NCBI RefSeq assembly: GCF_900683735.1 | Contig: NZ_LR215979.1 | Span: 2,232,001 to 2,296,000, forward strand | Reading direction: 5' to 3' | DNA from: Fusobacterium ulcerans ATCC 49185 | GTDB lineage: Bacteria > Fusobacteriota > Fusobacteriia > Fusobacteriales > Fusobacteriaceae | Length of the DNA stretch: 64,000 nucleotides | In this document: piece after piece, positions 42,525 through 57,999 of the stretch | Position numbering within the stretch: position 1 is the first letter of the stretch | Layout of the letters: each line of letters starts with the position of its first letter | Program-made: the position numbers and the translations under genes | The notes under the pieces: generated by a model | Database searches by the model: none | What the model was told of the DNA's origin: nothing | Seen by the model: the letters and a program-made list of their open reading frames with translations, nothing else

Positions 42525-42824
42525 TTAAATTTCCATCTCTAGCAGAGCTGAAGATAAACTTTTCCCATGTTTATCCAAAGCCAGAGATCTTGTTACTCCC
42601 CCACCTAAAGCTTCATCCATGACAAAGTTTAAAGCCCCTAAATTTGGTATTTCATATCTAACTACTTCTCCATGTACTATATCTTTAAAATATTCTTTTA
42701 CTTTCTCAGCAGTTACTTTTTCACGAATTAATTCATAATCTTTTTCATCATAAACTATAAGAGAAATATTTGAAATATTTCCTTTATCTCCTGTTCTTGA
42801 ATGAGCTATATCTAATAATTTCAT
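42525..42824 (-). CDS. AtuA-associated small subunit (C-terminal AtuA-like domain)
   Basis: A 99-residue protein beginning MKLLDIAHSRTGDKGN, the pattern of the C-terminal domain of AtuA-type proteins, which in many bacteria is fused to the DUF1446 domain. It probably forms a complex with the protein encoded just upstream. The frame is open to 42839, but that ATG includes the ribosome-binding site of the better ATG at 42824. Only one base separates the stop of the large-subunit gene from this start, so translation is coupled. Last gene of the sigma-54 operon. The reaction is unknown. Confidence 0.8.
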   Translation of the reverse strand: MKLLDIAHSRTGDKGNISNISLIVYDEKDYELIREKVTAEKVKEYFKDIVHGEVVRYEIPNLGALNFVMDEALGGGVTRSLALDKHGKSLSSALLEMEI

Positions 42825-42825
42825 T

Positions 42826-44178
42826 TTAAACCTCCTCATACATAACTTCGACTTTTATATCTTCTCTAGGAACAAATATAGAACATATTGAAACTACTTC
42901 ACTTACGCTCTTAGTTACTCCTCCGCCACCAGATGGTCCATTAGTATAAAGAGTTTCTACTTCATTTACTATTTTAGTTGCTTCTGCTTTATTTGCTGTT
43001 CTTCCTGCTACTCTCAATCTTACTTCACCTAAAGTAGATGGATCACATAATTTTCTTCCAATAGTATCTCCATAAAGAGAATTTACTCCTAAAAGATCTA
43101 TTTTCAATTCTTCAAATTTTACTCCTGTATACTCTAATCTTTTCTTAACTACTTCTCCTGCAAGAGCTGCTTTGGCATAAGCAGTTGAACCTCCATAGCT
43201 GATTCCAGCATCTCCTATAAAGCAATCTCTATATCCAATACTTACTTTTAAAGTTTTTGGTTTTTCTTTTCCTGTTGCTCCAGTTAGTAATACTTTATCT
43301 TCTCCTATTTCTTTTAATGAAATAGTTGTAAAATCAGCTACTCCATCAGGAGTTAAGTAATTTGCTGGGTCATGTATTTCATATATAAGCTGTTCTTTAC
43401 AAGTGTGAGTAGTTACAAGTCCACCAGTTGTTTCAGTTTTTGTAATTACTACTTCACCATTCTCACTTACTTCAGCAATAGGGAATCCTACATTCCATAG
43501 ATCTTTTACTTCATTGTATCCAGGTACTGCAAAATATCCTCCACATACCTGAGCTCCACATTCAAGAAGATGTCCTATCATAATCCCTTTTCCAATTAAA
43601 TCAGCATTATTTACATCCCAACCAAATTCATAAATCAATGGAGCCATGAATATTGCAGGGTCAGCACAACGACCTGTAACTACTATATCTGCTCCATTTT
43701 TCAATGCCTCTACTATTCCATCAGCACCTAAATATACATTTGCAGATATTAATTTATCTTCTAGATTTTTTAAAGGCATACCTAATTCTAATATATCACG
43801 ATCAAGGTATTTTCCAAGATGTTCAGATATATCATCTCCAATTACTGCTGCTAATTTAAGATTTTTTATTCCCATAGATTCTGCCATTGATTTAATTTTT
43901 TTGATAGCACTCAATGGATTAGCAGCTCCCATGTTAGTTATTACTTTTATTTTTTTCTCTGAGCATATAGGAAGTATTTTCTCAAATCTATATTCAAGCA
44001 GACCATTATATCCCTTGTTTGGATCTTTTAATTTTTCCTGTTGAGCTATTGCTATTGTTCTTTCTGCAAGACATTCAAAAACTATATAGTCAATATTTCC
44101 ATTGAGCATTAAATCTACAGCTGGCTCTATTCTATCTCCAGCATAACCTGCTCCTGAACCTATTCTTACTTTTTTCAT
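42826..44178 (-). CDS. AtuA/DUF1446 family protein (acyclic terpene utilisation type), large subunit
   Basis: A 450-residue cytoplasmic protein of the DUF1446 family. It starts with RIGSGAGYAGDRIEPAVDLM and contains IDYIVFECLAERTIA, ITNMGAANPLSAI, GADIVVTGRCADPAIFMAPLI and an LYTNGPSGGGG loop near the end. In Pseudomonas the name-giving AtuA is needed for citronellol breakdown, but family members in anaerobes act on other, unidentified compounds. Fusion proteins of about 560-600 residues carry the C-terminal domain in the same chain; here it is a separate gene. The CitMHS transporter is encoded 19 bases upstream, which suggests an organic acid as substrate. Confidence 0.85.
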   Translation of the reverse strand: MKKVRIGSGAGYAGDRIEPAVDLMLNGNIDYIVFECLAERTIAIAQQEKLKDPNKGYNGLLEYRFEKILPICSEKKIKVITNMGAANPLSAIKKIKSMAESMGIKNLKLAAVIGDDISEHLGKYLDRDILELGMPLKNLEDKLISANVYLGADGIVEALKNGADIVVTGRCADPAIFMAPLIYEFGWDVNNADLIGKGIMIGHLLECGAQVCGGYFAVPGYNEVKDLWNVGFPIAEVSENGEVVITKTETTGGLVTTHTCKEQLIYEIHDPANYLTPDGVADFTTISLKEIGEDKVLLTGATGKEKPKTLKVSIGYRDCFIGDAGISYGGSTAYAKAALAGEVVKKRLEYTGVKFEELKIDLLGVNSLYGDTIGRKLCDPSTLGEVRLRVAGRTANKAEATKIVNEVETLYTNGPSGGGGVTKSVSEVVSICSIFVPREDIKVEVMYEEV

Positions 44179-44197
44179 TTTAACCTCCTGAAGTTAA

Positions 44198-45478
44198 TTA
44201 TCTATATAAAGCACCTGTTACTATTGCTACTATAAGCATTACTATTGTAGTTAAAAACGCATATGGAATTGTTTTCTTTTGATGTTCTCCAAGTTCTACT
44301 CCTGTCAATCCAACCAAAAGGAAAGTTGACGCTGTAAGAGGACTTACTGGGAATCCAGTCGTCATTTGTCCTAATATAGCCGCTCTTCCAACTGCTATTG
44401 CTGAACTTCCAAATTCTTGAGCTGTACTTGCAAGAACTGGTAGTACTCCAAAGTAGAATGAATCTGGATCAAACAGTAAGCTTGCTGGCATACTTATTAC
44501 TCCTGTAATAACTGCCATATAACTTCCCAATGATTTAGGAATTGTTTTTACTATAACTGTAGACATCTCTGTTATCATTCCAGAATTTTGCATAATTCCA
44601 ATAAATGCACCTGCTGCAAATAATATACTCGCCATCATAAGAGCTGCTTTTGCATGAGCATCCACTCTTTCTTTCTGCTCTTTTACAGAAGGAAAGTTTA
44701 TTACTATTGAGATACAGAAAGCAATCATAAATACAACTGTTGGAGATAATTTTCCTGATACAAGAACTACTATTGCAACTATTATCGTCAAAATATTTAC
44801 AATAAAGTTTCTGCTTTCTTTCTTTTCTCCCAGATTCTCTGTATCAATATTTATATTTTCTATATTTCCAATTCTAACTTTTTCATCTCTTCCTAATTTA
44901 AAAGCTACAAAAAGAACAAATAATATTCCTGCTAAAACAGGTATAAGTAAAGGATTAAAAAGTTCTGTTACTGGTATTTTTAAAGAAGTTGCTGCTCTGA
45001 TTGTAGGTCCTCCCCATGGAAGGATATTCATTACCCCTGCTCCTAGTGCTACTATTGTAGCAAGAGTAGTTTTTCTCATTCCTAAAGCTTCATATAGAGG
45101 AAGCATTGCTGGAACTGTTACCAGAAATGTTACTGCTCCTGAACCGTCAAGATGTACTATCATAGCTAGTATTGCTGTTCCTATTGCTATTCTTATTGGG
45201 TCTTTACCAACAATTTTTAAAATTTTATCAATTATCGGCTGGAAAGTTCCTGCATCTGTAAGAATCCCAAAGAATAAGATTGCAAAGATAAACATAGTTC
45301 CAGTTGGAGCTATTGATTTTACCCCATCATTAATATATTTTCCAATATTTAACCCATGTCCTCCTATAAGTGCTGTTATTACAGGCACAGATATAAGTGC
45401 TACTAATGGAGACATTTTTTTCAACATTATTACTGCTAATAGTACAATGATCGTTATAAATCCTAAAGCCGCTACCAT
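44198..45478 (-). CDS. CitMHS-type organic acid transporter
   Basis: A 426-residue inner-membrane protein with about 11-12 helices. Typical segments of the citrate-metal/H+ symporter superfamily are ILFFGILTDAGTFQPIIDKILKIVGKDP (about 67-94), HLDGSGAVTFLVTVPAMLPLY and MPASLLFDPDSFYFGVLPVL near the C-terminus. CitMHS proteins import citrate complexed with Mg2+ or Ca2+; related members take other di- and tricarboxylates. First gene behind the sigma-54 promoter at 45543-45557, hence probably induced by its own substrate through the activator at 45796-47148. Confidence 0.88.
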   Translation of the reverse strand: MVAALGFITIIVLLAVIMLKKMSPLVALISVPVITALIGGHGLNIGKYINDGVKSIAPTGTMFIFAILFFGILTDAGTFQPIIDKILKIVGKDPIRIAIGTAILAMIVHLDGSGAVTFLVTVPAMLPLYEALGMRKTTLATIVALGAGVMNILPWGGPTIRAATSLKIPVTELFNPLLIPVLAGILFVLFVAFKLGRDEKVRIGNIENINIDTENLGEKKESRNFIVNILTIIVAIVVLVSGKLSPTVVFMIAFCISIVINFPSVKEQKERVDAHAKAALMMASILFAAGAFIGIMQNSGMITEMSTVIVKTIPKSLGSYMAVITGVISMPASLLFDPDSFYFGVLPVLASTAQEFGSSAIAVGRAAILGQMTTGFPVSPLTASTFLLVGLTGVELGEHQKKTIPYAFLTTIVMLIVAIVTGALYR

Positions 45479-45542
45479 ATTTTCCTCCCTTAATTTTATT
45501 AATATTTATTTTCGTCTGACATTTTCTTTGTTAAAATATAAA

Positions 45543-45557
45543 GCAAATCCTATGCCA
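45543..45557 (-). promoter_or_regulatory. Sigma-54 promoter (-24/-12) of the CitMHS-AtuA operon
   Basis: On the minus strand TGGCATAGGATTTGCT: -24 TGGCAT and -12 TTGCT with the correct 5-base spacing (consensus TGGCACN5TTGCW). The transcription start would be near 45531, about 50 bases before the transporter ATG. rpoN and a sigma-54 activator are both in the window. Confidence 0.88.
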
Positions 45558-45629
45558 TAGTAAATATTTTTTAATTGCCTTGATTTATCAGGGTTCAGAA
45601 AATTTAAAATAAATTTTATATAAAAAAAA

Positions 45630-45645
45630 TTCTAATTTTTTAGAA
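45630..45645. promoter_or_regulatory. Activator-binding palindrome, site 1
   Basis: TTCTAA-TTTT-TTAGAA, a perfect 6-4-6 palindrome 73 bases upstream of the sigma-54 -24 element. The same motif occurs at 45741 and 45773. Confidence 0.65.
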
Positions 45646-45646
45646 A

Positions 45647-45704
45647 TAAAAATGTGAATGACTTTTAAGCAGAAATATAATCTAGCTTTTTGATCATTCA
45701 CATT
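45647..45704 (-). terminator. Terminator of the activator gene
   Basis: AATGTGAATGA (45651-45661) and TCATTCACATT (45694-45704), an 11-bp stem; on the minus strand TTTTATTTC follows. It separates activator palindrome 1 from palindromes 2 and 3. Confidence 0.7.
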
Positions 45705-45739
45705 GACAATTTTACAACTTAATAATTCTTAAATACATG

Positions 45740-45757
45740 TTTCTAATTTTTTAGAAA
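45740..45757. promoter_or_regulatory. Activator-binding palindrome, site 2
   Basis: TTTCTAATTTTTTAGAAA, an extended copy of site 1. Site 3 begins 32 bases further on (about three helical turns), as expected for cooperative binding of activator dimers. Confidence 0.7.
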
Positions 45758-45771
45758 TAATTACTGTTCTA

Positions 45772-45789
45772 TTTCTAGTTTTTTAGAAA
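45772..45789. promoter_or_regulatory. Activator-binding palindrome, site 3
   Basis: TTTCTAGTTTTTTAGAAA, one base different from site 2 and 7 bases beyond the end of the activator gene. Confidence 0.7.
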
Positions 45790-45795
45790 CAAACA

Positions 45796-47148
45796 TTATC
45801 TTTCCAGTTTATTATATAATGTAGCAAGAGATATATTCAAAGCTTTAGCTGTTTTTTTCTTCCCCTCTACACTGTCACCATATATCTCTATTACTTTTTT
45901 CAAATAATTCTGCTCTGCTTTCCTTACTATTTCACTAAGAGGGAGGATATTTTCATTCTCATTTATATCATTCTTTATAGTTATTGGAAGATGTTCAGCT
46001 TTTATTTCATTTCCTTCAGCCATATTAAATGTAAATTCAACAATATTTTTTAATTCTCTTATATTTCCTGGCCAGTCATATTCTTTTAATACTTTCAAAG
46101 CATTTTCATTTAATCTTACTTCTTTCCTATATTTCATTGAAAGATCACAGAGAAATTTTTCTGCTATTGCTTTTATATCATTCTTTTTCTCTCTCAATGG
46201 AGGTATAGACATAGGCATTATTGCAATTCTATAATAAAGATCTCTCCTGAAAGTGTTCTCTTCTATCATTTGTTCCAGATTTTTATTAGTAGCACAAATC
46301 AGTCTTACATCTATTGGTATTTCTTTTGATCCACCAATTTTTCTTATACTTTTTTCCTGAAGCACTCTAAGAAGTTTTCCCTGCAGTCCATATTCAAGTT
46401 CTCCTATCTCATCTAAAAACAGAGTTCCTCCCTGGGCAAGTTGGAACAACCCAGTCTTACCATTTTTCTTCGCTCCTGTGAAAGACCCCTCTTCATAACC
46501 AAAAAGTTCACTCTCTATTAAATTTTTCTCAAAAGAAGCACAATTTACAGGAATAAACGGAAAATCTTTTCTTGGACTGAAATTATGAATAGCACTTGCA
46601 TAAAGTTCTTTTCCAGTTCCACTTTCCCCTGTTATCAATACATTAGAATCAGCCAGAGCTATTCTCTTTGCAAATTCTTTTACTTCCATACTTTTTTCAT
46701 CTACAGCTATAATATCATCAAAACTGTATTTCCCATTTCCTAATGTTTTTACATGCTCTTTTAAATTTTGAATTATTATTTTTGAAAGATTTAATTTTTC
46801 TGTAAGCTTATAAATATCTATCAGTTCATTAAGAAGAGATATTCCCCCTATAACCTTTCCATTTTCATAAATAGGCACCATATTTACAAGATATTCTACT
46901 TCTCCCATCTTTCTGTGAGCTCCCAGTTCCATTTTTTCATCTTTTACAACATCTGTAAGGCGGCTTCCAGGACGTACTTCAGAAAGATATTTTCCTATTA
47001 TATTTTTTTCTTCTACTTTTGTTATTCTTGTATATGCAGGATTTATGTATCTTACTATCCCTTCTTTATCTACTATAAGTATTCCATCATAAAGTGAATC
47101 AAATACAAGTTTTGCATGCCCTGTTATTTTTATCATATTATTCTCCAT
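45796..47148 (-). CDS. Sigma-54-dependent activator (PAS, AAA+, Fis-type HTH)
   Basis: A 450-residue enhancer-binding protein. The N-terminal PAS domain (about 10-115) has [20 protein letters not shown] and probably binds a small ligand. The AAA+ domain (about 145-385) has Walker A GESGTGKE (174-181), the sigma-54 contact loop GSFTGA (221-226, Ser in place of the usual Ala), Walker B LFLDEIGE and the arginine fingers around REL. The C-terminal helix-turn-helix (about 405-450, [15 protein letters not shown]) is of the Fis type. It should act on the promoter at 45543-45557 through the three palindromes. Its start lies 11 bases inside the end of the acid phosphatase gene. Confidence 0.95.
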
Positions 47149-50020: not shown

Positions 50021-50299
50021 CCAGACTTAATCTCCTACAATTTGTATATTTTTTCTACTACTTTCATTCCAGTACTGCTTTGTAGATGGATTTACTGCTG
50101 TGGGAAGAATAAAGATAGTTTTTTTCTTTCGATGTTTAGAAAATCAACATATGTTTGTGGATATATGTTTACTCTCACTGATTTTTATAGGGACTAGAAA
50201 TGCTTTCTACACTCGACCTTTATGTGATTTTATAGAAGCTGTGACTCCAACTGTAGTATTCTACTTTGTATTTAACAAACACTTGAAAAAAAGAGACCA
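50021..50299 (+). pseudogene. Remnant of a MATE-family transporter (C-terminal part, frameshifted)
   Basis: Two plus-strand frames together read like the end of a MATE protein. Frame one (from 50021 to the stop at 50195) gives an IYCCGKNKDSFFLSMFRK segment, like the loop before helix 11. The +1 frame then gives NAFYTRPLCDFIEAVTP and a final hydrophobic helix ending in FNKHLKK, like the last helix. At least one frameshift lies between about 50130 and 50190, and the N-terminal three quarters of the gene are missing. Assignment is by pattern only. Confidence 0.4.
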
Positions 50300-50335
50300 G
50301 AGATTAGTGAAAATTAATCTGCATGGTCTCTTTTT
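50288..50335. terminator. Terminator of the D-amino-acid deacylase operon
   Basis: AAAAAGAGACC (50288-50298) and GGTCTCTTTTT (50325-50335), an 11-bp stem with an inner AGATTA/TAATCT pairing, with T-runs on both strands. It follows the transporter gene on the minus strand. Confidence 0.88.
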
Positions 50336-50361: not shown

Positions 50362-51681
50362 TTAGAATAATTTCATTCCGACGAAAGACCAGATGAAAAT
50401 ATAGATAAGAACAACCATTGAAACTCCCCATCCTGCATAGAGCATCGCTTTGATATTATTTGATCTGGCAATTCCCATAGGACTAATCATATTAGTTCCT
50501 GGATAGATAGAACTTGTTATTCTTGAAGCTGCAATTAGAGCTATCGCCCACATTTCCATAGGGACATCTGTGACTTTTAAAGCTGGTAAAAACAGATCAT
50601 GTGTTATCTGCATTTGAGCCACTGCTGCTCCATTTATTCCAAATGCACCAACTATACTTCCCACTATGACAAGAGTTGTCTTTCCTCCTTTATTTATTAA
50701 TGGCATAAATAAATTACTTAATGCTTCAAATCCTCCACCAATGTTTATTAACTCCATAAAGACATTTAAGAATATGAAAAGTAAAAATAGTTTTGCCTGT
50801 TTTGATATTCCTATTCCTAACTCTTTAAAAGTATCATCTAAACCTAAACCTCCAGCTACTCCTATTATAGAAGAAAGAATTAGCATTACAATAATTGTAT
50901 AGTTTGTTCCCTGTTTTGTAAGCAGTCCATATCCCACCATTACCATAAACGAGATACAAAATAGAGTAGTTGTTCTTTTTTGTTTTTGATTGGGAACAAA
51001 TTTTTCTTCAAGCTCTTTAGTCAAATCATATTTTTCTTTTCCCCTTGTTTTTTTTTGTATTTTCAGAGCTAGAAAATATATTGAAATCAGCCAGATTATC
51101 CCAAAAGGTAAGGCGGCCCATATCATCATTTTGCTATATGATAATCCTGTTATAGCCAGTAAGGTTACTACTGGTCCTGTAAATGGTCCCCATATGAGCC
51201 CAGTTTCCCCTGAGGTTTGGAAAACAGCTCCAACTGTACTTGGAGTAAGACCAACAGCAGCTACAACTGGTATTAGAATGGGAGCTATTATAGAGCACCC
51301 ACCAGCTAATGTTCCTAGCAGTCCACAAATCAGGACACATGAAAACATCACTGCTAAAATAGCCTTTTTTTCATTGTTTACCCCTATCTTATTTATTATC
51401 CAAGTGACCATAGTCTGACTGACTCCAGTTTTTGTCATTAGATGTCCTAAACCACTTCCCAGTATGATTATAAATCCAACTATTCCTAATGATGAACCCA
51501 ATGATTTAGCAAATAATTTTCCTATTGATTCTGGACTTTGTCTTGTTATAAAATATCCAAAAATAATAGCAACTCCAGTAGCACCTGTACTGTTTTTTTC
51601 TTTAAATGCTAATATCAAATATACTATCATAGGAATCAATGCAATTAAAGAAGGCGGTTCAAATAAAATTTTTATATCCAT
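50362..51681 (-). CDS. NhaC/GntP-like secondary transporter
   Basis: A 439-residue inner-membrane protein with about 11-12 helices. Re-entrant-type segments TLAGGCSIIAPILIPVVAAVG (about 122-142) and NGAAVAQMQITHDLFLPAL, each followed by Gly/Pro-rich turns, place it in the ion-transporter superfamily of NhaC, GntP and CitMHS. The exact family is not certain. Two bases separate it from the deacylase gene, so it very likely moves the product or substrate of that enzyme (an amino acid, acyl-amino acid or counter-ion). Last gene of the operon. Confidence 0.7.
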   Translation of the reverse strand: MDIKILFEPPSLIALIPMIVYLILAFKEKNSTGATGVAIIFGYFITRQSPESIGKLFAKSLGSSLGIVGFIIILGSGLGHLMTKTGVSQTMVTWIINKIGVNNEKKAILAVMFSCVLICGLLGTLAGGCSIIAPILIPVVAAVGLTPSTVGAVFQTSGETGLIWGPFTGPVVTLLAITGLSYSKMMIWAALPFGIIWLISIYFLALKIQKKTRGKEKYDLTKELEEKFVPNQKQKRTTTLFCISFMVMVGYGLLTKQGTNYTIIVMLILSSIIGVAGGLGLDDTFKELGIGISKQAKLFLLFIFLNVFMELINIGGGFEALSNLFMPLINKGGKTTLVIVGSIVGAFGINGAAVAQMQITHDLFLPALKVTDVPMEMWAIALIAASRITSSIYPGTNMISPMGIARSNNIKAMLYAGWGVSMVVLIYIFIWSFVGMKLF

Positions 51682-51683
51682 AA

Positions 51684-53306
51684 CTATTCACCTCTTTTTA
51701 AAACTACTCCTGAAAATTCTTTTGTTTCCTCATCATTTATAAGTGCTATTTTTCCATTAACTATTACTGTATCTATTCCTTTTGAATATTGTTTTGGATT
51801 GGCATAAGTTGCTCTATCTTCTATTTCTTCCAAGTCAATAATAGTTATATCAGCATAATAATCTTCTGCCAGAATACCCCTATTTTTTAATCCAAGACGA
51901 TTGGCAGGCATAGAAGTCATTTTTTTGATTGCATCTTCTATTGAAAATAGATTCAAATCTCTTGCATATTTTGATATAACACGAGCATGACTTCCAAAAG
52001 CCCTTGGATGTGGTTTCCCTTGTGATAAAATTCCTGTTTCAGATAGACTCATAGCATCTGAACACACTATTGCTAAAGGATGTTTTATTATCTCTCTAAC
52101 ATCATTTTCTGACATACGTTTCAATATTACCTGTACTCTCCCTTTTTCCTTTTGTACTATGTCAAAAACTGTTTCCAATGGATCTTTTTTCCACATCTCT
52201 GCTATTTCTCTAATTGATTTTCCTTCTAATAAATGACTTTCTTCATTGAAAACAGATGCTATCACTACTTCATCCCATGAACCTAAAGTACTGATAGAAT
52301 TCTGCCAGCCTTTGATTCCTGTCTTTATATCTTCACGCATCTGTTCTCTGATTTCTTTTTCCCTAAGTCTCTCTATCAGCTTCTCAACTCCTCCTTCAAA
52401 TCCCCATGGAGGTAGTAGAGAAGAGAGTGAAGTTAGTCCAGCATCATATGGATATACATCGAAAGTCACATCCAATCCATCTGCCTGAGCTTTCTCTATT
52501 CTTTGTAATAATTGATCTGTTTTTCCCCTGTTTTTCAATCCAGCTATTTTCAAATGTGATATGTGTAAAGGAATCTCACTTTTTTCCGCTATAGTTATAG
52601 CTTCTTCTAAAGCCTCAAATATTCCGTCACTTTCTGTACGCATGTGGGTAGTATAATACCCATTATATTTTTTTACTTCCTTGCATAATTCTATTAGTTC
52701 TTCTGTACTGGTATAATCTCCTGGCAGATAAACTAACCCAGATGTGATAGCAAAAGTTCCAGCTTTCATACTTTCATTTACTATTTTTTTCATATTGTTT
52801 AATTGTTCATCTGTTGGAGCTGCCTTGGAGAAGTCCATTTCATTTATTCTCACTACCCCCTGAGCTAACAGAGGAATAATATTTACAGCAGGAGGAGTAT
52901 TATCAATAAAATCGAAATATTCATCTAGAGTATTCCATGGTAATTTTAATTCCACAGGAATACTTCCTATCAGACGAGTAGCAAGATATTTTAGCAAATA
53001 ATCTTTCTTTTCCTCAAAAATAGGTGCTACAGCTATACCACAGTTGCCTATTACTTCAGAAGTTACCCCATCTCTTATCTTGCTGCTGGCGCATCTGTCA
53101 TATATCACTGATACATCTGAGTGTGTATGTATATCTATAAATCCTGGGCAAACCAGTTTGTTCTCAGCATCAATGATTTTTTCTGCATCCTCTTCTATTT
53201 TTCCTATTCTTATTATTTTATTTCCTTTAATTCCTATATCAGCTCTATATCTCTCTTTCCCTGTTCCATCAATTATTTTTCCATTTATGATTTTTATATC
53301 CAGCAT
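51684..53306 (-). CDS. N-acyl-D-amino-acid deacylase (D-aminoacylase)
   Basis: A 540-residue amidohydrolase that frees D-amino acids from N-acyl-D-amino acids. All metal ligands known from the Alcaligenes enzyme are present: His60 and His62 in FIDIHTHSD, Cys89 in GNCG, His221 in YYTTHMR and His251 in HISHLK. The catalytic Asp lies in AIVCSDAM. The ends form the small beta-sandwich domain (VNGKIALIND...). There is no signal peptide, so it acts in the cytoplasm after uptake. GAGGAAA precedes the ATG. Flanked by membrane proteins on both sides in one operon. Some relatives cleave D-dipeptides or related compounds, so the substrate is not certain. Confidence 0.9.
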   Translation of the reverse strand: MLDIKIINGKIIDGTGKERYRADIGIKGNKIIRIGKIEEDAEKIIDAENKLVCPGFIDIHTHSDVSVIYDRCASSKIRDGVTSEVIGNCGIAVAPIFEEKKDYLLKYLATRLIGSIPVELKLPWNTLDEYFDFIDNTPPAVNIIPLLAQGVVRINEMDFSKAAPTDEQLNNMKKIVNESMKAGTFAITSGLVYLPGDYTSTEELIELCKEVKKYNGYYTTHMRTESDGIFEALEEAITIAEKSEIPLHISHLKIAGLKNRGKTDQLLQRIEKAQADGLDVTFDVYPYDAGLTSLSSLLPPWGFEGGVEKLIERLREKEIREQMREDIKTGIKGWQNSISTLGSWDEVVIASVFNEESHLLEGKSIREIAEMWKKDPLETVFDIVQKEKGRVQVILKRMSENDVREIIKHPLAIVCSDAMSLSETGILSQGKPHPRAFGSHARVISKYARDLNLFSIEDAIKKMTSMPANRLGLKNRGILAEDYYADITIIDLEEIEDRATYANPKQYSKGIDTVIVNGKIALINDEETKEFSGVVLKRGE

Positions 53307-53315
53307 AATTTCCTC

Positions 53316-53969
53316 CTAGTTATTATTTTTTTTGTTCATAACATAAACCAATCTGGCACTACTGATTCCTCCAATTACTGTACATAGAGTTACTATACCA
53401 CTAGGTACTCCCAGTTTAGGTAGAACAAGGAAAATAAGTACAGTTAATATTATAGTAAGTATACCTATTTTTCTATCTTTAGACATCATGTCTATATATA
53501 CTGCTGCAAATAGAGATGGTAATATATATGTAAATGAACTTAGAATAAATTTAGGAAGATAAGGCATTATCCCTGCTCCAATCAGAACAAATATACTAAG
53601 AAAACTGAATGTTATAAAATTTGAAGCTGCTACTCCCAATGTAGCTATAACATCTCCCTCTGGAGTTCCTCCTTCATACCCAGTTACCTTCTGTGCCATT
53701 CTGGCTGCTGGCATACGAATATCCCCAACAGATCCAGATAACCATGACATATATGTTCCCCCAGTTCCCAATACTCCAAAGTATGATAATGGTTGTACTA
53801 TCCAGCTAACAAATCTGGCAGAAGCAACAAGTACAAACAGTGTTATGAATTTTGAAGGAAAAACGTGGTGTATTACTGCCAAATAAAGTACTGGAAAGAA
53901 GTTAAAAATAATTGCCAGTGATAAAGTGATGGTTCCTATTTTAATAGATGCTTTAGTAAAACTGCTCAT
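53316..53969 (-). CDS. Membrane protein paired with the DUF5058-type protein
   Basis: A 217-residue protein with about five or six membrane helices and few charged loops. I do not recognise its family by name. A conserved-looking central loop (WLSGSVGDIRMPAARMAQKVTGYEGGTPEGD) contains charged residues between helices. It starts 13 bases after the DUF5058-type gene with GGGAGG in front and lies 9 bases before the deacylase, so the pair is likely a two-part permease for the deacylase substrate. Confidence 0.7.
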   Translation of the reverse strand: MSSFTKASIKIGTITLSLAIIFNFFPVLYLAVIHHVFPSKFITLFVLVASARFVSWIVQPLSYFGVLGTGGTYMSWLSGSVGDIRMPAARMAQKVTGYEGGTPEGDVIATLGVAASNFITFSFLSIFVLIGAGIMPYLPKFILSSFTYILPSLFAAVYIDMMSKDRKIGILTIILTVLIFLVLPKLGVPSGIVTLCTVIGGISSARLVYVMNKKNNN

Positions 53970-53982
53970 AAATTTCCTCCCT

Positions 53983-54702
53983 TTAAAGATATAATTTTAT
54001 TGCATTTGTTATCAGCATTCCACAGAGCATTGCAATTCCTAAGGAAATTTCTTGAATTCTCTGATTTTTTCCAAATAATTTTCCTAGAGCCAGCATTACA
54101 ATTGCAGATATTACTGCTGCCAGTATATAGTAGTTCGGTTTTCCAATTATGTTGCTTGTCAATAGATATCCAAATACTCCCAATACAGAACCTTTCATCA
54201 ATAGTTTTATCCATTTAGGGTCATATTTAGTATTTAATTTTTCAACCATAATTCCCATTTTTCCAGCACATAATAGTGCCATTATCATCCAGCCAACATT
54301 GTTTAATGCCATTGCCCATAGAGAATAACTGAATGCTTCTACTCCATAGCCTGCTGCTCCAGGCTCAACTCCAAATACACTGGCTCCTATAGATACCTGA
54401 GCAATTTCTGATCTTCCTGCTCCTACATCGTTGATACGCATCCAAGCATTAGGGGCTCCAACTACTGCTATTAAAGACATTAGTATTACTATTTGAGCCA
54501 CAGTAGGACCTATGGAAGTCACCATTGCTGATCTGATTCCCTCTTTTATTTTCTGCTGATCCATTCCCAGATTCTTACTTTCTTTCAAACTTACTTTTAC
54601 AAAGAGGACACTTTGAATTATAAGTACTAACATCATAAAACTGCATGCTATCCACATTCCATAGCTGTTCATTATTTCATTTAATTTCAATCCAGTTTCC
54701 AT
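53983..54702 (-). CDS. DUF5058-type membrane protein
   Basis: A 239-residue protein with about six membrane helices, matching the pattern I know as DUF5058: SLKESKNLGMDQQKIKEG after the first helix, IGPTVAQIVILMSLIAVVGAPNAWMRINDVGAGRSEI in the middle, and NNVGWMIMALLCAGKMG. The function of the family is unknown. First gene of the deacylase operon. The conserved loop with Arg and Asp/Glu residues and the pairing with a second small membrane protein suggest a two-component carrier. Upstream lie tandem 9-bp repeats (54781-54800). Confidence 0.75.
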   Translation of the reverse strand: METGLKLNEIMNSYGMWIACSFMMLVLIIQSVLFVKVSLKESKNLGMDQQKIKEGIRSAMVTSIGPTVAQIVILMSLIAVVGAPNAWMRINDVGAGRSEIAQVSIGASVFGVEPGAAGYGVEAFSYSLWAMALNNVGWMIMALLCAGKMGIMVEKLNTKYDPKWIKLLMKGSVLGVFGYLLTSNIIGKPNYYILAAVISAIVMLALGKLFGKNQRIQEISLGIAMLCGMLITNAIKLYL

Positions 54703-54780
54703 ACATTTCCTCCATTTTTATATATTTTGTTACATTTTTAATTCGTTTTTTACAATATATCATAAAGACTTTTGACTGTA

Positions 54781-54800
54781 TATTGTCTTAATATTGTCTT
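54781..54800. promoter_or_regulatory. Tandem operator repeats upstream of the deacylase operon
   Basis: TATTGTCTT occurs at 54781-54789 and 54792-54800, an 11-base period (one helical turn). A partial inverted copy, ACAATAT, lies nearer the genes at about 54752-54758. On the minus strand AGACAA / TATGAT-type promoter bases overlap the repeats. The regulator encoded at 54874-56178 is the likely ligand. Confidence 0.5.
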
Positions 54801-54825
54801 TAAGTGAATTTTATGAAATTTATAT

Positions 54826-54875
54826 AAAAAAAGCTGAAAAATTCAGCAAGTATTTCACTAATTTTTCAGCTTTTT
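54826..54875. terminator. Terminator of the regulator gene
   Basis: AAAAAGCTGAAAAATT (54828-54843) and AATTTTTCAGCTTTTT (54860-54875), a perfect 16-bp stem that runs into the stop codon of the regulator gene. On the minus strand it is followed by T. Confidence 0.85.
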
Positions 54876-56178
54876 AATTAAAATTTATTTTTATTATTCT
54901 GCTTGGTCTTCCATATTGAGTTATAATATTTTTTCCTACAATTTCTATATATCCAGCATTTTCCAGCTTTTCAATTATTCTGTCCATGCTTCTTATTGAT
55001 ATCCCACATTTAGTTGCCAGCTCTTTAGAAGTAAAGTTTTTCTTTTGTTCTCTTTCTATGATATTATAGATTTGAAATATTTTATTTAGACTCACTTGAG
55101 ATTCATCTGCTATTTTATAAAATCTTTTGTTTATCTCTAAAGAATCATCTGTATTATTGTATTTGATAGGACCATAGATTCTATTGCCACTGTATATAAC
55201 ATAGAGGATATTTTCACCTTTCTGTTTTGCTTTTTCCATGGCAATATTTGCATTATATTTAGCTTCTATTGCAGTTTCTCCATATCCTATTCCAATAGAG
55301 ATAGAATTAAAAATCTGATTTTTTAAATTTTCAAAAAGTTCTATATTGTATAAATTATCTGTTTCAGACTCCAAAATTTCCTTAGTGGAGAAGAGTAGAT
55401 AACTATCCTTTGATGGTTCTATTACGGCTGCCTGAATCTTTTGAGCAAAAAAATAAATCTGTTCTGATACTTTCATTTTATCTAAAATATATCTATATTC
55501 ATTTTTATCATTGATTGAATACTCTTTTGGAATATTTATACAGATTGATAAAACAACTAACTGACTTTTTTGATTGATTTTTGCCTGATATTTTAGATAT
55601 GCCTTTTTAAAGGACTCTCTTATGGTATTGTAAGTAGGAACTGCTACAATATGTGGTATTCCCTCTTTTTCTAACATTTTAGTAACTTTATACAATGCAG
55701 TTATACAACAACTTGTTTTTCCCTGCCTATAATTTGTCCTGTGAAATTCAAAAACCCTGTTATTATACTCTACATCTAGTATAGACTCATTGATTACCTG
55801 AATTTTTAAATCCTGAGCAAATCCTATTTCAGCGTATATTTCCTCCAGAACATCTTTAGAATATGTATCAAAACTTATATTTTTTATATCATATCCTCTT
55901 TCTATAACTTCCAGTAAAGCTCTTAGGAGTCTGTCACCATGTCGAGGGAATTTTTCCCAGATAGTCTCAGGTTGAATGTGTTGTAAGGCATATTTATAGC
56001 ATAGCATTCCTGTGAACATCAAAACATCATATTTTTTTTGGATTTTTTCCAACATTTCAGGAACTTTTTTGTAATCATCATAAATAATATTGGTTATATT
56101 TATTTGGTCAAATTCTTTTTTTACAACCATATTTATTTTTTCTATGTATGATGAAGATGCAACTAATCCAACCTTCAT
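54874..56178 (-). CDS. Three-part transcriptional regulator: sensor-like, degenerate cyclase-like and winged-helix regions
   Basis: A 434-residue cytoplasmic protein, not assigned to a named family. Residues about 1-190 resemble the PrpR-N/periplasmic-binding-like fold (VGLVASSSYIEKI, YDVLMFTGMLCYKYAL). Residues about 200-345 look like a degenerate GGDEF or GTP-cyclohydrolase-III-like domain: a FNSISIGIGYGETAIEAKYN stretch, then NIAMEKAKQKGENILYVI, where a GGDEF domain has its second half, but no GGDEF/GGEEF loop. The last 80 residues form a winged helix (KELATKCGISIRSMDRIIEKLENAGYIEIVG). It probably controls the adjacent deacylase operon in response to a small molecule. Its own promoter is at 56201-56228. 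Confidence 0.7.
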   Translation of the reverse strand: MKVGLVASSSYIEKINMVVKKEFDQINITNIIYDDYKKVPEMLEKIQKKYDVLMFTGMLCYKYALQHIQPETIWEKFPRHGDRLLRALLEVIERGYDIKNISFDTYSKDVLEEIYAEIGFAQDLKIQVINESILDVEYNNRVFEFHRTNYRQGKTSCCITALYKVTKMLEKEGIPHIVAVPTYNTIRESFKKAYLKYQAKINQKSQLVVLSICINIPKEYSINDKNEYRYILDKMKVSEQIYFFAQKIQAAVIEPSKDSYLLFSTKEILESETDNLYNIELFENLKNQIFNSISIGIGYGETAIEAKYNANIAMEKAKQKGENILYVIYSGNRIYGPIKYNNTDDSLEINKRFYKIADESQVSLNKIFQIYNIIEREQKKNFTSKELATKCGISIRSMDRIIEKLENAGYIEIVGKNIITQYGRPSRIIKINFN

Positions 56179-56200
56179 TTTCCCCCCCTTTTTTTACTGT

Positions 56201-56228
56201 ATTATAGCATGGGATTTATAGAAGTTAA
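56201..56228 (-). promoter_or_regulatory. Promoter of the three-part regulator gene
   Basis: On the minus strand TTAACT (56228-56223), 16 bases ending in TGC, TATAAT (56206-56201): extended -10 promoter 22 bases before the ATG. Confidence 0.65.
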
Positions 56229-56544: not shown

Positions 56545-56561
56545 TAATTTATAATAAAAAA

Positions 56562-56606: not shown

Positions 56607-57999
56607 GTATAATATAGTTACCACCCTAATTATACAAAGGAGACATACATGCAAATCAAACATATTATCTCTAAAATCAATATAACAAATCTTTTAGGTA
56701 AAATCAAGAAATATTTTAAAAATGAGCATTTTGAGGATGTTAAACAGACTATTCAAAAATTCTTAGCTTGTTCTATTGATAAATCTTTTCTCTCTCTTCA
56801 ATGCCCTAATTGTCATGATGCGCATAAAATTAAAGTTACTTGTAAATCTAGATTTTGTCCTTCCTGCGGTAAACGTTATTCTGCTGTTTGAACTGAAAAA
56901 ACTTCCGCTTCTCTTATTGATGTTAAACATAGAAGTGTCCTTTTTACTATTCCTGAAGAACTTAGAATGTTTTTCTTCTATGATAGAGATCTTTTAACTA
57001 AGCTTGCTTATGCTGTTAATGATGTTTTTAAATATCAATTTCATAACATTAAAGCAAAAAATCAAAGAATTCATAAAATTTCAAAATATTCTTCTAAATA
57101 CTTTACTAACTCAGATATCATTCATTATGGATTGATTACTGTTATTCACACCTTTGGACGCGATCTTAAATGGAACCCTCATATTCATGCTATTGTTACT
57201 TTAGGTGGTTTCAATAAAAACTACCAATTTCTTGAAAAAAAATATTTTCATGTCAATTCCATTGCTGGACAATGGAAAAAAATGGTTATTGATATTGTTA
57301 AATCTGGAAATTATGACAAGCCTGAAATTAAAGCTAAAGCTTATGCTGCTGCTAACTACCTTTATCGCAAAAATACAAGATTCTTTTTCAATGTTGCAAA
57401 AAATGATTTAAATAATAATATTTATGCAATTAAATATATTGGCAGATATCTAGCAAGAGCTCCTATCGCAGAATATAAAATTATTGATTTTTATGATAAT
57501 AAGGTTACTTTCTATTATGAAAGTCTTGCTGATGATAAACAAAGAATTGAGCTTACTTTAGATGCAGAAACATTTCTTTCCAAATTAATTATTCACATTC
57601 CCCCTAAACATTTCAAAATGATTAGGCGCTTTGGAATCTATTCTAGAAATATTAAATCAGAACTTAAAAACATCATGAAATTCATGAGAAAATATGTCTC
57701 TAAATATTCCAATTTTACTTTTTATCAACTTGAAATATGGAAAGCTTTTGGAGTAAATCCTTTTTATTGTTTTAAATGTAATACCAGAATGAAAGTTAAA
57801 AAAATATCATATTTTAATATACATACAGGCTCCATTTGCTGGAAAGAATATCGCTAAATAGCTGATTAACAATCAGCTTTTTTGTGCTGTCAATTTTAAT
57901 CTTATTCAATTAATATATCTAATATGAATACAAAATAATTAACATTTTTTATTTTTTCAACAAATTTATCAAATTATAATTTCCTAAGAAATAAAAAAA
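56563..57999 (+). mobile_element. IS91-family insertion sequence, copy 1 (1437 bp)
   Basis: The first of two direct tandem copies. The unit runs from the left hairpin (GCTGAG at 56563) to the poly-A before the next GCTGAG at 58000. It holds one transposase gene interrupted by TGA, and a right hairpin AGCTGATT/AATCAGCT with T-run at 57860-57883, followed by about 115 bases of non-coding end. No inverted terminal repeats are seen, which fits rolling-circle (HUH) elements. The left edge, the junction and the right edge all show AATAAAAAA. Exact ends are uncertain by a few A residues. Confidence 0.8.
56649..57857 (+). pseudogene. IS91-type HUH transposase, interrupted by TGA (copy 1)
   Basis: A 402-codon frame broken by TGA at 56889-56891. 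The N-terminal part has the IS91-type zinc finger LQCPNCHDAHK and CKSRFCPSCGKRYSAV. The TGA stands where relatives have a conserved Trp (CGKxYxxxW). The rest continues in the same frame: HTFGRDLKWNPHIHAIVTLGG with the HUH motif HIH (Y2_Tnp domain), then YIGRYLARAPIAEYKI with the catalytic-Tyr region, and the HIPPKHFKMIRRFGIYSRN segment typical of IS91. All other Trp codons are TGG. AAGGAG precedes the ATG. The gene is inactive unless the TGA is read through. Confidence 0.85.

Follow-up and report, generated by a model that had tools for sequence, protein, structure and literature searches.

A DUF5058 membrane protein and its obligate partner: a probable two-part carrier encoded beside amide-bond hydrolases in Fusobacteriota and Bacillota

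Organization of the locus

The window analyzed here is a stretch of 64,000 nucleotides from a Fusobacterium ulcerans genome of 3.84 Mb, assembled in a single contig. The locus of interest spans positions 50362 to 56228 of the window and comprises the following features, given in the order of transcription.

54874..56178, minus strand: regulator gene, 434 aa (profile match)
54833..54847, minus strand: terminator-like hairpin in the interval between the regulator and DUF5058 genes
53983..54702, minus strand: DUF5058 membrane protein, 239 aa (PF16481 match)
53316..53969, minus strand: partner membrane protein (PAR), 217 aa, directly downstream of DUF5058
51684..53306, minus strand: D-aminoacylase-like amidohydrolase, 540 aa (profile match, metal ligands)
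50362..51681, minus strand: DctM/DcuC-like transporter of the ion-transporter superfamily, 439 aa (profile match)
about 50289..50335, minus strand: hairpin with T-run closing the operon (read by eye)

The initial annotation described four close-packed minus-strand genes divided from a regulator gene by a terminator, and the coordinates agree with this description: 171 nt containing the hairpin (54847-54833) separate the regulator from the DUF5058 gene, and the gaps that follow along the operon are 13, 9 and 2 nt. A purine-rich ribosome-binding site lies ahead of all starts. The four operon genes, at 34-35% G+C, are richer than both the window (29.9%) and the regulator (28%). Immediately 3' of the regulator, positions 54828-54873 contain an extended AT-rich inverted repeat (AAAAAGCTGAAAAATT...AATTTTTCAGCTTTTT) that could be a bidirectional terminator.

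Transposase genes start just upstream of the locus, at 56553. Between 56553 and 59257, a Y2_Tnp (PF04986) transposase gene occurs twice in tandem, the two copies being 99% identical and 1.4 kb apart. In the first copy a TGA separates a zinc-ribbon-like N-terminal frame (56649-56891) from the main frame (56967-57857) in the same phase; the leader of the second is 37 bp shorter, as implied by the repeat spacing. A further minus-strand group (42525-47148) encodes AtuA-like proteins and a transporter resembling GntP/CitM, all assigned by eye, together with a PAS-sigma54 regulator whose best match is PrdR (427 bits versus a cut-off of 795).

The regulator of the locus had been described as a three-part protein. 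Its C-terminal winged helix holds up, matching HTH_24 above the cut-off (22.8 bits versus 21.9), but the weak resemblance of the middle to GGDEF/GTP-cyclohydrolase III stays below threshold, and no profile matches the N-terminal part. Members of this regulator family lie within 5 kb of a DUF5058 gene pair in 16 of the 167 loci surveyed below, including a paralogous operon of the same genome. The label NhaC/GntP-like for the last gene has to be replaced: against Pfam and NCBIfam, GntP scores 19.7 bits, below its cut-off of 22.5, and NhaC is absent, whereas DctM (45.8 bits) and DcuC (36.6 bits) both exceed theirs. Elsewhere in the same genome (loci L255 and L256), two D-acylase paralogues are accompanied by a homologue of this DcuC-like protein and lack the DUF5058 pair, the DcuC-like proteins of the window and L255 being 55% identical. 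D-acylase genes thus have the DcuC-like gene as an established companion, and the DcuC-like protein may, by the same arrangement, be the importer.

DUF5058 and its partner form an obligate pair

The first membrane protein of the operon is a clear member of the DUF5058 family, as first labeled: it matches PF16481 at 163.6 bits (cut-off 28.2) over profile positions 1-222 of 222. The Pfam entry gives no function, and a literature search on DUF5058/PF16481 found no paper. The partner protein of the window has no Pfam or NCBIfam match, and none of 31 partner proteins scanned against both collections gave a convincing one, so that the family has an obligate downstream partner without a family model of its own. 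A survey of PF16481 in more than 800 genomes, drawn from relatives, the entire phylum and a number of Bacillota groups, yielded 167 non-redundant loci, and in all 167 the partner gene lies directly downstream of DUF5058 on the same strand; where the genes are further apart, in three loci, the DUF5058 frame seems to be broken. A partner profile, searched independently in 398 genomes, placed partner and DUF5058 in the same 31 genomes. The sole partner-only match (genome G284) was considered as an instance of a partner without DUF5058, but is explained by a contig end that cuts the gene. DUF5058 and partner are thus an obligate pair, which bears out the pairing assumed in the initial annotation.

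The pair is present in 17 of 98 Fusobacteriota genomes, in 31 of the 398 surveyed from a Bacillota phylum and in 87 of 249 genomes of one order, that of Tissierella. The window's genome carries a second DUF5058 copy (C1:776339-777683) adjoining a homologous partner gene, in an operon of regulator, AbgT, DUF5058, partner, PepT-like M20 and M20D amidohydrolase genes. Much of this paralogous operon recurs in seven further genomes of the same family, where the regulator and AbgT genes may be present or absent, and the loci closest to it belong to Fusobacteriaceae such as Cetobacterium. The window-type copy, by comparison, was found in the window's genome only among the 98 Fusobacteriota, and its horizontal acquisition is likely on account of this restriction. 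Weak matches of the DUF5058 profile (E-values 3e-6 and 6e-4) were also observed within genes for UppP, the undecaprenyl-diphosphatase, of the fusobacterial genomes G025 and G060 (L022 9067-9435 and L023 1889-2236), and a distant relation between DUF5058 and UppP is possible on the basis of these profile matches.

Amide-bond hydrolases adjoin the pair

To describe the neighborhood of the pair, hydrolase families were derived from the neighboring genes themselves, with the help of Pfam and NCBIfam scans. In 147 of the 167 loci, the pair has an amide-bond hydrolase or related gene next to it on the same strand, compared to 4 of 301 background genes located further off in the same stretches, a background that is too low as an estimate for any hydrolase, since the families were picked from the neighbors. 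The adjacent classes are dominated by M20 (124 of 167), followed by glutaminase (9), isochorismatase-type amidase (5), D-acylase (4) and others in smaller numbers, among them M42, M81, amidohydrolase 1, N-terminal-nucleophile acyltransferase and Asp/Glu-type racemase; two more loci have a PGA_cap protein. Nearly all of these classes have C-N bonds or free amino acids as their target. Hence, the pair is not found mostly beside unrelated enzymes, an outcome that would have spoken against the initial annotation. Within 5 kb of the pair, an AbgT gene is found in 4 of 167 loci and a DcuC-like gene in the window only.

A carrier for D-amino acids in general is not supported by this distribution, because M20 peptidases or amidohydrolases are the enzymes usually encoded beside the pair and a D-acylase gene lies within 1.5 kb of it in only 6 of 167 loci, distributed over two distinct clades in the tree of the pair. 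In one of these clades, Asp/Glu-type racemase genes also occur near the pair, at L149 and L198. The other is the window's own clade (support 1.0), where the pair is accompanied by M20 and D-acylase genes at L101, by an M42 peptidase gene at L102, and by M20 genes and a D-serine ammonia-lyase gene (647 bits versus a cut-off of 246) at L165. The deacylases of the window and L101 are sisters across phyla (53% identity, support 1.0), L101 holding the closest relative found. Gene content and phylogeny thus lend moderate support to a role in D-amino-acid metabolism for the window's lineage, and the earlier proposal of a D-amino-acid salvage module is retained for this clade, through the D-serine ammonia-lyase of L165 and the sister D-acylase of L101, but not for the pair in general. 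In a separate arrangement, L235 (1591-10395) carries in one row an NhaC antiporter, an isoaspartyl dipeptidase (430 bits, cut-off 331), an Asp/Glu-type racemase, the DUF5058 pair, two M20 genes and a regulator, and is likely to be a salvage operon for isoaspartyl/D-aspartyl peptides.

The deacylase

The deacylase of the window matches Amidohydro_3 at 82 bits, and its closest solved relative is the D-aminoacylase 1m7j (247 bits); the scores against N-acyl-D-glutamate deacylase and OngB are 230 and 198 bits. All five metal ligands that had been read from the sequence are present (H60, H62, C89, H221, H251), as is the catalytic D417. The residues that anchor the acetamido and carboxylate groups are strictly conserved in D-aminoacylases and OngB (PMC12017989); in the window enzyme K253, Y193, Y285 and R435 are kept and the carboxylate-anchoring Ser is replaced by L291. 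At three positions the enzyme from A. faecalis has Phe, Met and Ser where the window has V192, A255 and L291. Membership in this family is not diagnostic for D-amino acids, since it includes OngB, a close structural relative of D-aminoacylases that acts on N-acetylglucosaminate only (PMC12017989). The fusobacterial relatives of the deacylase that were examined (L258-L273) are mostly found in conserved operons with diaminopropionate ammonia-lyase and a YgeY-type hydrolase, often with an SSS sodium symporter; these operons correspond to the ygeXY genes joined by a D-acylase-like gene and lack the DUF5058 pair.

Predicted topology and structure of the pair

The charge bias of 159 aligned pairs suggests N-out/C-out for DUF5058 and N-in/C-in for the partner, and with this opposite orientations of the two proteins in the membrane. 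Joint structures were predicted with AlphaFold2 for relatives whose two genes are in frame, and could thus be read as one chain with stop codons changed to glycine. The models obtained for L165, from the window's clade (pTM 0.82, mean pLDDT 87.7), and L094, from another clade (pTM 0.86, pLDDT 88.7), are both of joined chains and were run without a negative control, and in both the artificial linker is the only long low-confidence stretch. By our own estimate, a pTM of roughly 0.55-0.6 would be expected if the two halves were rigid but had no fixed position relative to each other, and a defined interface between DUF5058 and its partner is therefore predicted. A confident joint model was thus obtained in two distant clades, where the initial annotation would have been weakened by the lack of a confident interface. 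Direct-coupling analysis of the 159 pairs (effective number 105) gave a ranking that did not separate within-protein from between-protein residue pairs, and its signal was set aside.

Both models present about six long helices per protein and a short helical stretch after the second helix, which in the DUF5058 proteins of these relatives is re-entrant-like. In Foldseek searches of the PDB with both models, the highest-probability matches were membrane transporters of the UraA/SLC26 group, at TM-scores of about 0.2-0.34. A split UraA/SLC26 fold (7+7 repeat), which led the ranking, was rejected at these values, as more than 0.5 is needed, and for the same reason no solved structure in the PDB can be said to share the overall fold of either model. 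Homology between the two subunits was also considered. An 84-column match between DUF5058 and partner (P 0.004) was lost with deeper alignments and shuffled controls, and the hhalign score of 21.9 falls within block-shuffled controls reaching 29.4, so that subunit homology is not supported.

Proposed mechanism and alternative explanations

DUF5058 and its partner probably make up a nutrient carrier in two parts, of an uncharacterized kind, because their genes are inseparable and almost always lie beside enzymes that cut amide bonds of amino-acid compounds; gene context and predicted structure together provide strong indirect support for this reading. We infer transport, its direction, the substrate and the roles of the regulator and last gene as follows. 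The pair would import small amide-bonded amino-acid compounds, such as N-acyl-amino acids, dipeptides or amides, and the hydrolase of the same operon, which differs by lineage, would cut their amide bond in the cytosol. In the window, the cargo would most likely be an N-acyl-D-amino acid or a dipeptide containing a D-residue, since the enzyme of the operon is D-aminoacylase-like. The DcuC-like protein would act as a further carrier, either taking a different substrate or getting rid of the acyl acid, and substrate would turn the operon on through the regulator. Taken as a whole, a two-subunit carrier of the secondary type that feeds cytosolic amide hydrolases, with a D-type cargo in the window, is somewhat favored. 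A broader formulation is more tentative: the pair may represent a new structural class, a two-gene heteromer of six-helix subunits in opposite orientations, through which anaerobic members of the Bacillota and Fusobacteriota would take up amide-bonded amino acids in general, its specificity being matched by the operon hydrolase, here for D-amino acids.

The likeliest of the alternatives concerns the substrate. A carrier-plus-hydrolase unit could also be built around a compound that is not a D-amino acid, and N-acetylated sugar acids, N-carbamoyl compounds and ordinary peptides are examples; the narrow activity of OngB on N-acetylglucosaminate (PMC12017989) and the exchanged residues at 192, 255 and 291 speak for such a substrate. 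Yet the retention of K253, Y193, Y285, R435 and all metal ligands, the higher scores against D-aminoacylase and N-acyl-D-glutamate deacylase than against OngB, and the D-serine ammonia-lyase and racemase genes near related pairs all argue for the D-type cargo, and we regard the alternative as a minority possibility.

The division of labor in the operon can also be read in reverse. Several pair operons already have another transporter (AbgT, NhaC or DcuC-like), and the pair may therefore do something else. In the reversed reading, the DcuC-like protein would import the deacylase substrate, as its association with the D-acylases of L255 and L256 suggests, and the pair would export or exchange a product, either the free amino acid or the acyl acid. 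That the paralogous pair adjoins AbgT, a family annotated for efflux/uptake of p-aminobenzoyl-glutamate, is in keeping with such a role. Most of the 167 loci, however, have no second transporter of these kinds, and an exporting pair would leave the hydrolase there without an importer, which makes this arrangement rather improbable. Slightly less probable still is that the pair is a membrane channel, a sensor or a scaffold for the hydrolase. The want of a solved structure with the same fold leaves room for it, but both proteins are devoid of a soluble or signaling domain, the variety of hydrolase families that accompany the same pair disfavors a specific scaffold, and UraA/SLC26 transporters top both Foldseek runs by probability, albeit with low TM-scores.

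If the pair is a carrier, two orphan families, DUF5058 and a partner lacking a family model, would receive a function at once, and it would become clear by which route N-acyl-amino acids, dipeptides and derivatives of D-amino acids can enter anaerobes. The varied hydrolases beside the pair make the substrate guesses testable one by one.

Comparison with known systems

By sequence, the window enzyme belongs to the same family as D-aminoacylase (1m7j) and N-acyl-D-glutamate deacylase (3gip), with the same metal ligands and catalytic Asp, but it is approximately 55 residues longer and differs in side-chain pocket residues; the family also includes the sugar-acid deacetylase OngB. The utilization of p-aminobenzoyl-glutamate through AbgT and AbgAB follows the same logic as the proposed unit, that is, a carrier together with a cytosolic amide-bond hydrolase (M20D). 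The paralogous pair of the window's genome adjoins both an AbgT and an M20D gene, whereas the window has neither. AbgT is a single polypeptide of another family, while the DUF5058 pair consists of two small proteins without detectable mutual homology. The UraA/SLC4/SLC23/SLC26 transporters (7+7 inverted repeat), at the top of both Foldseek lists, superpose at about 18 Å rmsd and have, on this evidence, a different overall fold. Heteromeric small membrane transporters are known from the paired SMR proteins and heterodimeric Fluc, which have homologous subunits of about four helices each. The DUF5058 pair differs from these in its six long helices per protein and in that subunit homology is not supported, and resembles them in being composed of two small subunits of inferred opposite topology, presumably both needed.
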